DNA from: Thermoflexales bacterium
GTDB taxonomy: Bacteria > Chloroflexota > Anaerolineae > J036 > Brachytrichaceae
DNA: 39,583 bases
Assembly: GCA_025057935.1 (NCBI GenBank)
Contig: JANWUW010000102.1
Span: forward strand, 1 to 39,583
Direction: 5' to 3'
The notes beneath the pieces are model-generated. The model made no database searches. It had not been told where the DNA came from and was given only the letters and a program-made list of their open reading frames with translations. The position numbers and the translations under genes were made by a program. This document shows, in pieces, positions 25,524-28,756 of this stretch (position 1 is its first letter; every line of letters starts with the position of its first letter).

Positions 25524-25596
25524 TGACCCCTACGGGATTCGAACCCGTGTTTGAGCCTTGAGAGGGCTCTGTCCTGGACCACTAGACGAAGGGGCC
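25524..25596 (-). tRNA. tRNA-Glu (anticodon CTC)
   Basis: A 73-nt cloverleaf. The acceptor pairs GGCCCCT with AGGGGTC (one G-U), the discriminator is A, the anticodon stem GAGCC/GGCTC encloses loop CTCTCAA with anticodon CTC, and the T arm is ACGGG-TTCGAAT-CCCGT. CCA is not encoded. A TAACAT hexamer (25613-25618) lies 16 nt upstream on the minus strand. Confidence 0.95.
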
Positions 25597-25698
25597 GCCT
25601 GCAACGCGAACAATGTTACCACAAGTTGCGCGCGCACTTTTGAATTCCTTGTCCGTGCAAGGATAATGGCGCTCCTGCTTTGCTCGCCTCGTGATGCG

Positions 25699-25726
25699 TT
25701 CACGCAAGACGCGAATCTTGTATAAT
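25699..25726 (+). promoter_or_regulatory. Promoter of the tRNA-Ala / T-box / leuS unit
   Basis: TTCACG (25699-25704), 16 nt, then a consensus TATAAT (25721-25726). The tRNA begins 13 nt further on. No other promoter is visible before the T-box, so this one probably drives leuS as well. Confidence 0.75.
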
Positions 25727-25739
25727 CACAGTTGCGACT

Positions 25740-25812
25740 GGGCCAGTGGCGCAGTTGGGAGCGCGTCTCAATGGCATTGAGAAGGTCAGGGGTTCGAGTC
25801 CCCTCTGGTCCA
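25740..25812 (+). tRNA. tRNA-Ala (anticodon GGC)
   Basis: A 73-nt cloverleaf. Acceptor GGGCCAG pairs with CTGGTCC (one G-U), and the discriminator is A. The anticodon stem TCTCA/TGAGA holds loop ATGGCAT with anticodon GGC at 25773-25775. The T arm is AGGGG-TTCGAGT-CCCCT. CCA is not encoded. The T-box stem I begins only 14 nt after its 3' end. Confidence 0.95.
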
Positions 25813-25826
25813 CTCCAGCAGAACAA

Positions 25827-26053
25827 CACGACAGCGACGACCGGAAGTAGTAAGCCATCCCTGCAGCGAGTCAGGAGAACGGTGCGAGCCTGGCACGGCG
25901 CCCACGGGGAGCGCGTTAGGCTGAACTCGTCCGCGAGCGTGAACGACACGGGTGCGCCCGTTATCGCGCAGCAACGAGGCTGCCACTGCATGGCGGCAAA
26001 TCAGGGTGGTACCACGGGGCCCACTCGTCCCTGAGCGGATGAGTGGGCTTTTT
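25827..26053 (+). promoter_or_regulatory. T-box riboswitch (tRNA-Leu-sensing) ahead of leuS
   Basis: Stem I spans about 25827-25941, closed by CACG/CGTG, GCG/CGC and GACGA/TCGTC. It contains GGAAGTAGTA near its base, the AG-bulge region CAGCGAGTCAGG and the distal loop GGTGCGAGCC. The 3' side of the specifier loop reads CTGAACTC, giving Leu codons CTG (25921-25923) or CTC (25926-25928); AGCC/GGCT pairing beside it favours CTC. The T-box sequence AGGGTGGTACCACGG is at 26003-26017, and its TGGT would pair with the ACCA end of uncharged tRNA-Leu. A terminator follows at 26019. The family is known from Firmicutes, Actinobacteria and Chloroflexi. Confidence 0.92.
26019..26053 (+). terminator. T-box terminator before leuS
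   Basis: A 12-bp stem with one G-U pair (26019-26030 with 26037-26048), loop CTGAGC, then five T. Its 5' arm abuts the T-box sequence, so antiterminator and terminator exclude each other. This makes it a transcriptional T-box. Confidence 0.92.
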
Positions 26054-26074
26054 GGTTGCAAGGTGAGATCGCCT

Positions 26075-28756
26075 ATGGACCGTTACAACCCACAAGAGAT
26101 CGAACCAAAATGGCAAGCGCGTTGGGAAGCGGATCAGCTCTATCGCACCGCGCCAGCGTGCGACAAGCCCAAATACTACGTGCTTGACTTTTACCCCTAC
26201 CCCTCTGGCGAGGGCATGTCAGTGGGTCATGCGCGCAACTATGTGCCAACCGACGTGATTGCGCGCTACTACCGCATGAAGGGCTACAACGTCCTTCATC
26301 CCATGGGCTTCGACGCTTTCGGCTTGCCCACTGAGAATGCCGCTATTAAGCTCAAGGTGGATCCCCATGAGCTGAACGAGCGCTACTCCGCGAACTACGT
26401 GCGCCAGTTCAAGCTCATGGGCTTGAGCTATGACTGGTCACGTCTGATCAACAGCGCGCATCCGGAGTATTACCGCTGGACGCAGTGGATCTTCTTGCAG
26501 CTCTTCAACGCCTGGTACGACCCGCGCAAGGACAAAGCATGCCCTATCGCCGAGCTGGAAGCCGAGCTTGCCGAGCGCGGCTCTAAGGCGATCTTCGACT
26601 ACATTGACGAGCACCCCGAGCACGTGGGTATTGTCACCAAAGGCACGCCTGTCATCACTGCTGAGCAGTGGCGCGCCATGAGCCGCCGCCAGCAAAACGA
26701 TTACCTCAACAACTTCCGCCTCGCCTTTCAGGCTGAGAGCGTAGTGAACTGGGACCCTGTGGATAAGGTGGTGGTCGCCGACGAAGAAGTGATCGATGGG
26801 CGTGCATGGCGCAGCGGCGCGTTGGTGATCAAGCGCACGCTCAAGCAGTGGTTCTTCCGCATCACTGCCTACGCAGAGCGGTTGATCAACGACCTCGACA
26901 CCGTGGACTGGCCGGAGCGCATTGTCACCATGCAGCGCAACTGGATCGGCAAGTCTGAAGGCGCTGAGGTGATCTTCCGCGTCGCTGGCAGCGGTCAGCC
27001 GATCCCCATCTTCACCACGCGCCCAGATACCTTGTGGGGTGCAACATTCATGGTGCTCTCGCCTGAGCACCCGCTCGTGCCCGAAATCACCACGCCAGAG
27101 CAACGCGACGCAGTCGAGCGCTACATCGCCTTCGCCAAAGGAGAAACCGAGGAACAGCGCACTGCCGAGAACAAGGAGAAAACTGGCGTCTTCACAGGCG
27201 CCTATGCCATTAACCCCGTCAACGGGGAGCACATCCCGATCTGGATCGCCGACTACGTGCTGATGAGCTATGGCACAGGCGCGATCATGGCGGTGCCAGC
27301 ACACGACCAGCGCGACTTCGAGTTCGCGCGCAAGTTTGGCTTGCCGATCCGCGTCGTCATTCAGCCGCCTGACCGCGTCCTCGACCCTGCGACCATGGAG
27401 CGCGCCTACGAGGACAAGCTTGGCACGATGGTGAACAGCGGACCGCTGACGGGGCAAACCAGCGGCGAGGATGGCAAAGCCGCCATCCGCGCGGCGATCG
27501 AGTATTGCCGACAGCAAGGCATTGGCAAGCGCCGCGTGAACTACAAGATTCGCCCCTGGCTAATCAGCCGCCAACGCTACTGGGGCACCCCCATCCCCAT
27601 CGTGCACACCGAGGACGGACCAGTACCCCTCCGCGAGGATGAGCTGCCGCTGCTGCTGCCGCGCGTGCAATCCTACGAGCCAGGACCAAACGGCGAATCA
27701 CCACTGGAGAGCATCCCCGAGTTCGTCAACGCGCCCAACGGGCGACGCGAGACCGACACGATGGCGACGTGGGCATGCTCGTCGTGGTATTACATCCGCT
27801 TTGCTGACCCTCACAATGACAAAGCCATCGGCGACCCCAGGGAGATCGATTACTGGCTGCCCGTAGACCTCTACGTGGGCGGTGCAGAACACGCCGTGCT
27901 CCACTTGCTGTATTCGCGGATGTGGACCAAGGTGCTCTACGACCTCGGCGTGGTCAAGTTCAATGAGCCGTTTAAAGCACTGCGCAACCAAGGTTTGATC
28001 CTCGCACCAGAGAAGAAGGTTGACCCCCGCACTGGGCGCGAGTACTACGAAAAGATGAGCAAGTCAAAAGGCAATGTGATCACGCCCGACGAGGTGATCG
28101 CCGAGCACGGCGCTGACGCGTTGCGCGGCTACGAATTGTTCATCAGCGACTTTGAGCAAACCGTGCCGTGGAACACGCAGGGCGTGCCTGGTGTGCGCCG
28201 CTGGCTGGATCGCATCTGGCGCATCGTGCTTTATCCCGAAGTAGACAAAGGCGCGCCCACGCACATGACGGCGCGCGAGTTGCGCCGCATAGCCCACCAA
28301 ACCATTTTGCGCTACGAGCGCGACCTCCATGCCTTCTCGTTCAACACCATTGTCGCCGCAATGATGGAGTTCACCAACGCGCTTTACAAAGCGCGCGACG
28401 CCGGCTTGCACGGCACACCAGAGTGGGACGAGGCTGTGGACATCTTGCTGCGCTTGCTCGCGCCGATCGCGCCGCACATCGCAGAGGAGTTGTGGCATCG
28501 TTTGGGCAAGCCTTACAGCATCACCATGCAGCCCTGGCCTCAAGCCGACCTCGAAGCCGCCAAAGAAGAGGAGATCACCATCGTCGTGCAAGTGAACGGC
28601 AAGGTGCGCGACCGTCTTGTGGTGCCCGCCGACGCCGATGAGGAAACCATCAAGGCGCGCGCGCTCGAGTCGCCCTCCGTGAAGAAGTTCCTCAACGGCG
28701 GGCAGCCGAAGCAAGTGCACTACGTGAAAGGGCGGTTGATTAACTTCGTGGTCTGA
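26075..28756 (+). CDS. leuS: Leucyl-tRNA synthetase, variant with insert and no zinc-1 cysteines
   Basis: Class I synthetase of 893 residues that charges tRNA-Leu. The HIGH-type site reads SVGH (residues 49-52), so its first His is Ser. Next come GFDAFGLPTENAAIK, the CP1 editing domain (TTRPDTLWGATFM, AVPAHDQRDFEFA) and the KMSKS loop EKMSKSKGNVITPDE. After FNAWYDPRKDKA an insert of about 60 residues contains TPVITAEQWRAMSRRQQ; I recall a similar insert from Bacteroidota enzymes. The four zinc-1 Cys are replaced (WDPVD and RAWRSG in place of two CxxC pairs). GGTGA lies 8 nt before ATG 26075, which follows the T-box terminator. The frame is open further upstream, but only through the T-box. 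Confidence 0.96.
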   Translation: MDRYNPQEIEPKWQARWEADQLYRTAPACDKPKYYVLDFYPYPSGEGMSVGHARNYVPTDVIARYYRMKGYNVLHPMGFDAFGLPTENAAIKLKVDPHELNERYSANYVRQFKLMGLSYDWSRLINSAHPEYYRWTQWIFLQLFNAWYDPRKDKACPIAELEAELAERGSKAIFDYIDEHPEHVGIVTKGTPVITAEQWRAMSRRQQNDYLNNFRLAFQAESVVNWDPVDKVVVADEEVIDGRAWRSGALVIKRTLKQWFFRITAYAERLINDLDTVDWPERIVTMQRNWIGKSEGAEVIFRVAGSGQPIPIFTTRPDTLWGATFMVLSPEHPLVPEITTPEQRDAVERYIAFAKGETEEQRTAENKEKTGVFTGAYAINPVNGEHIPIWIADYVLMSYGTGAIMAVPAHDQRDFEFARKFGLPIRVVIQPPDRVLDPATMERAYEDKLGTMVNSGPLTGQTSGEDGKAAIRAAIEYCRQQGIGKRRVNYKIRPWLISRQRYWGTPIPIVHTEDGPVPLREDELPLLLPRVQSYEPGPNGESPLESIPEFVNAPNGRRETDTMATWACSSWYYIRFADPHNDKAIGDPREIDYWLPVDLYVGGAEHAVLHLLYSRMWTKVLYDLGVVKFNEPFKALRNQGLILAPEKKVDPRTGREYYEKMSKSKGNVITPDEVIAEHGADALRGYELFISDFEQTVPWNTQGVPGVRRWLDRIWRIVLYPEVDKGAPTHMTARELRRIAHQTILRYERDLHAFSFNTIVAAMMEFTNALYKARDAGLHGTPEWDEAVDILLRLLAPIAPHIAEELWHRLGKPYSITMQPWPQADLEAAKEEEITIVVQVNGKVRDRLVVPADADEETIKARALESPSVKKFLNGGQPKQVHYVKGRLINFVV

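Follow-up and report, generated by a model that had tools for sequence, protein, structure and literature searches.

A tRNA-Ala(GGC) gene precedes or lies within leucine T-box leaders of Chloroflexota and Bacillota

In the window, by which we mean the whole stretch of 39,583 nucleotides from a Thermoflexales bacterium analysed here, a tRNA-Ala(GGC) gene, a leucine T-box riboswitch and leuS follow one another on the plus strand, and sequence comparison identifies this order as one form of a conserved association of tRNA-Ala(GGC) with leucine T-boxes. In the other form, the tRNA is nested within the T-box itself, where it follows stem II, precedes the antiterminator and occupies the stem III loop. 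Among the genomes of Chloroflexota and Bacillota that were sampled, 137 have this form. The parts, their order and conservation, the single-copy status of the tRNA and the existence of the nested form can be read directly from the sequences. Based on these data, we consider it probable that tRNA-Ala(GGC), leucine T-box and leuS constitute a single transcription unit, which represents one form of the wider nested architecture. The nested form is the more surprising of the two and the better object for experiments; its culturable carriers include Thermosyntropha lipolytica and Desulfofundulus thermosubterraneus.

The tRNA-Ala gene of the window, whose anticodon GGC lies at 25773-25775 and whose CCA is not encoded, was called twice, by ARAGORN at 25740-25813 and as an Rfam tRNA at 25740-25812 with 63 bits. 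The discriminator A is position 25812; a sequence-only reading of the same DNA had placed the end of the mature tRNA at 25813, its coordinates being otherwise right. A spacer of 15 nt (25813-25827), which holds no promoter-like or terminator-like site, separates the tRNA from the leucine T-box (25828-26035). The latter is a full-length match to RF00230 (model positions 1-219, 65.6 bits, E = 7e-14); as this score is below the Rfam gathering score of 93, a default Rfam scan does not list the T-box. That threshold governs the search and does not describe anatomy. Its anatomy is complete. Stem I carries the conserved motif GAAGTAGTA (25844-25852), read from the sequence, and the leucine specifier CTC (25926-25928) lies within GAACTC (25923-25928) and fits the tRNA-Leu(GAG) of the genome, which is present in one copy. 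An ordinary stem III, GCTGCC...GGCGGC followed by AA (25979-25997), holds no tRNA at this locus. It is followed by the antiterminator with the T-box sequence AGGGTGGTACCACGGG (26003-26018, with AGGGTGGTACCACGG from 26003), the element AGGGTGGTACC and the UGGU bulge (26007-26010), and by an intrinsic terminator, GCCCACTCGTCC...GGATGAGTGGGC-TTTTT (approximately 26019-26053), which consists of a hairpin at 26019-26048 and a U run. The leucyl-tRNA synthetase gene leuS occupies 26075-28756 with its ATG at 26075 (NCBIfam TIGR00396, 955.5 bits), and its product is about 85% identical to LeuS of 'Candidatus Roseilinea' (Chloroflexota; L045). A tRNA-Glu(CTC) gene is located on the minus strand at 25524-25596, divergent from tRNA-Ala(GGC).

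The genome of the window organism (G000) has a size of 2.27 Mb, is 97% complete and contains 42 tRNA genes according to Rfam, among which the tRNA-Ala beside the leuS T-box is the only GGC isoacceptor. A promoter-like site, TTCACG-16-TATAAT, precedes this tRNA at 25699-25726 on the plus strand; it matches the consensus at 10 of 12 positions, its -10 hexamer lies at 25721-25726 and the predicted start is at approximately 25733. A second promoter-like site with 9 of 12 matches is found farther 5' of the tRNA (25640-25667). The promoter scan returned no site between tRNA-Ala and stem I and none in the tRNA, with a chance expectation of 0.4 in 1.7 kb, in agreement with the earlier claim that the only visible promoter precedes tRNA-Ala; the promoter-like sites are consensus matches. 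At only 15 nt, the stretch that separates tRNA and T-box is too short to hold a promoter. In addition, all 25 distinct loci of the same family that have the tRNA, the window included, carry a -10-like hexamer (TATAAT, TAGAAT, TAAAAT or similar) roughly 10-20 nt before it, and several of these loci also have a TTTGACA -35 element. Two other T-boxes are encoded in the window genome, before valS and trpE (L194 on C74 and L195 on C29, respectively). Here, the -10 hexamer stands directly 5' of stem I and there is no tRNA; in the leuS leader, the tRNA fills that gap. The conserved -10 hexamer before the tRNA, the sole GGC copy and the valS and trpE T-boxes with their own -10 and no tRNA suggest that the window organism likely makes a single primary transcript, and it is plausible that 3' processing of the tRNA creates the 5' end of the leader.

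The promoter-tRNA-T-box order is conserved across the family, which answers the proposal to check synteny in relatives: the tRNA-to-stem-I pattern was found in 21 of 28 family genomes, and three more genomes (G156, G238 and G348) have it at longer spacing. This conservation and the nested form in other lineages rule out a chance adjacency of tRNA and T-box. Two relatives have retained only one of the partners. In G284, which belongs to the same genus, the leuS T-box lies behind its own TACAAT -10 hexamer and has no tRNA (L259, reverse strand, approximately 1060-1300), and tRNA-Ala(GGC) was not found elsewhere in this 92%-complete assembly. In G138, a member of the same family, promoter, tRNA-Ala, terminator and leuS are kept, and the T-box aptamer is gone (L256, 1262-1500). 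Both genomes fall within the well-supported clade of the upstream form in the LeuS tree and therefore look like losses. Hence, a T-box without the tRNA, which the sequence-only reading had named as evidence against the shared unit, does occur in one close relative, but the LeuS tree suggests that it is a derived state. In G208, G156 and G238, a terminator-like hairpin with a T run is present between tRNA-Ala and the T-box (L233, L254 and L255, respectively), and the coupling between the two may be weaker there. The G348 locus (L258) contains two near-identical copies of T-box stem I split by a run of N, either a tandem T-box or an assembly artefact.

For the search for nested leaders, a pattern was used in which the tRNA T-loop is joined to AGGGTGGTACC at a distance of 23-83 nt. 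It matched in 47 of the 396 genomes of the window's class (36 of 222 genera), in 28 further genomes from other classes of Chloroflexota and in 62 of 348 genomes of Bacillota, the phylum of Desulfofundulus, whereas the same pattern read backward gave no match in any of the three genome sets. Due to the exact matching, some cases are missed, for example L010, L027 and L044, which were found otherwise, and a few matches may not be tRNAs (the one on C52 of G533 is not Ala-like). A detailed set was formed by 92 loci with a tRNA readable by ARAGORN and enough upstream sequence (nested loci from Chloroflexota and Bacillota are L129-L158, L196-L225 and L261-L288). Each of the 92 is a complete tRNA-Ala(GGC) gene, and in nearly all of 79 sampled genomes there is no convincing GGC match besides the leader copy, on which grounds we rejected the idea that the nested tRNAs are false positives of ARAGORN. 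GAACTC is present within 420 nt upstream of the tRNA in 88 and the stem I motif in 82 of the 92 loci. The two arms of stem III that flank the nested tRNA pair with each other: across 71 dissimilar loci, the mean duplex energy was -12.0 kcal/mol in cis and -8.5 kcal/mol when arms were swapped between loci (permutation p = 5e-5). In the predicted fold of some leaders, including L217 and L222, stem III runs continuous with the acceptor stem of the tRNA. Most of the nested leaders of Anaerolineae have a tRNA-Ala(CGC) 5' of stem I as well, and in other Anaerolineae both tRNAs, Ala(GGC) and Ala(CGC), are located upstream. As the tRNA lies inside the leader in many relatives, it must be co-transcribed with the leader there, which, together with the -10 hexamer kept before the tRNA in the family, supports the earlier view that tRNA, T-box and leuS are one transcription unit.

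We propose the following course of events for the window locus. RNA polymerase would start approximately 7 nt before the tRNA and copy tRNA-Ala and then the T-box. Uncharged tRNA-Leu(GAG) would pair with the specifier CUC and, by its 3' ACCA, with the UGGU bulge; its binding would stabilise the antiterminator and leuS would be read. With charged tRNA-Leu, the terminator would form, yielding a short RNA that is still a precursor of tRNA-Ala. Since the terminator is located downstream of the tRNA, terminated and read-through RNAs would both carry pre-tRNA-Ala, so that the supply of the sole GGC tRNA would not depend on leucine and the terminated leader would not go to waste. leuS would thus be driven by the promoter of a stable RNA and throttled by the T-box. 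RNase P would trim the 5' end of the tRNA, and its 3' end would be matured by RNase Z or exonucleases. In the window, the T-box would thereby acquire a processed 5' end near 25813; in the nested form, the cuts would sever aptamer and antiterminator once the decision has been made. We infer the processing and the leucine response from the anatomy and the established T-box mechanism. The specifier is CUC for leucine, so that the T-box does not sense its own tRNA-Ala, and self-recognition was rejected. A pairing in cis between ACCA of the nested tRNA and the UGGU bulge was also set aside: CCA is unencoded in most of the Chloroflexota copies that were read, and an internal ACCA would offer no free 3' end.

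Does the tRNA govern leuS? The sequence-only reading had tied expression of the synthetase to transcription of the tRNA. This was overstated, as the T-box decision comes after the tRNA has been transcribed and as either partner has been lost in a relative: G284 has lost the tRNA and G138 the aptamer, neither partner needs the other and, judging from these genomes, the coupling is not obligatory. One might even argue that the locus consists of two adjacent units, a tRNA with its own promoter and a T-box-leuS unit that starts within or just after the tRNA gene. G284 and the valS and trpE leaders of the window genome do place a T-box promoter directly before stem I, terminator-like hairpins follow the tRNA in G208, G156 and G238, and an additional start site within the tRNA gene may be conceivable. 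We nevertheless regard two units as improbable, given that the spacer is too short for a promoter, that the scan finds none in the tRNA and that the conserved -10 hexamer stands 5' of the tRNA; in the nested relatives, such a division is impossible.

Within a single unit, the order of genes could be of little consequence, leuS having captured a strong tRNA promoter or the reverse, without a function beyond the shared promoter. The variety of arrangements, with the tRNA upstream, nested, in tandem with tRNA-Ala(CGC) or lost, speaks for such a neutral neighbourhood, as do the at least four changes between nested and upstream forms that the LeuS tree requires; this tree is unrooted and quick, and does not settle the direction of change between the two forms. 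On the other hand, the nested form persists in Anaerolineae, other classes of Chloroflexota and Bacillota, always with one isoacceptor in one position and with stem III pairing kept, and we see neutrality as a real possibility that falls short of an even chance. At the other extreme, tRNA maturation might be part of the switch, with leuS output depending on tRNA-processing capacity or on the supply of tRNA-Ala; in the nested form, a cut by RNase P or RNase Z would sever stem I and antiterminator, and in the window it would alter leader stability. In favour of this, two phyla always have the same tRNA at one position, the stem III loop, and the predicted fold of some leaders makes stem III continuous with the acceptor stem. 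Bacterial RNase P is inhibited by pairing that lengthens the acceptor stem (PMC9433436); stem III could then delay cutting until the decision has been made, and a kinetic role for RNase P is possible. In the window, however, stem III is of the ordinary kind and the T-box would remain intact after a cut, and relatives have lost either partner, so that we rate such regulatory coupling as rather unlikely. As a tentative proposal, to which we would give somewhat less than an even chance, the leucine T-boxes of Chloroflexota and Bacillota could be conserved composite RNAs, with the sole tRNA-Ala(GGC) built into the structure of stem III or, as in the window, forming a 5' module. The terminated leader would then act as pre-tRNA, and RNase P and RNase Z, in maturing the tRNA, would contribute to the switch or reset it.

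Operons that combine tRNA genes with a protein gene are known from bacteria, for instance thrU-tyrU-glyT-thrT-tufB in E. coli. Such operons give one primary transcript that is split by tRNA processing, as we infer for the window; here, however, a tRNA-sensing attenuator lies between the two, only the protein gene is regulated, and the sensed tRNA (Leu) differs from the encoded one (Ala). In the B. subtilis thrS T-box leader, RNases cleave upstream of the terminator, and processing inside a T-box leader can determine where the mRNA begins and how stable it is; whereas an endonuclease cuts an ordinary leader in thrS, the cuts here would be those of tRNA maturation. The window leader shares with transcriptional leucine leuS leaders of RF00230 the stem I motif, the CUC specifier, the UGGU bulge, a stem III with AA on its 3' side, the terminator and the synthetase gene downstream. 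A T-box as described encodes no tRNA (PMC7583486), whereas in the window a tRNA-Ala gene separates promoter and stem I, and in relatives it is found inside stem III. The sequence-only reading did not recall a description of this arrangement, and none was found in our limited literature search, which did not include two main T-box surveys and does not prove absence; the passages found of the TBDB paper do not mention tRNA genes inside leaders. If our reading is correct, a riboswitch leader doubles as the precursor of a single-copy tRNA, so that the 'off' product of attenuation has a job, and a tRNA-sensing switch carries another tRNA in its own sensing domain. The timing of RNase P and RNase Z relative to transcription attenuation would become testable, as would the question of why leucine control is tied to this particular alanine tRNA in two phyla. 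It would also explain leaders that annotation pipelines likely split into a 'tRNA' and a 'partial T-box', or miss.

The genes that follow the nested leaders are in line with leucine control. A LeuS-like sequence is encoded downstream in 72 of the 92 loci, and leuS is replaced by a gene for an IlvE-like branched-chain aminotransferase, named by sequence motif only, in L144-L151, L153, L157 and L158. In six Bacillota, an acyl-CoA-synthetase-like gene, likewise assigned by motif only, stands after the nested T-box; loci with such a gene are L092 and L218-L223, and in L092 it is followed by leuS, suggesting that the leucine T-box may also control an acyl-CoA-synthetase-like enzyme.
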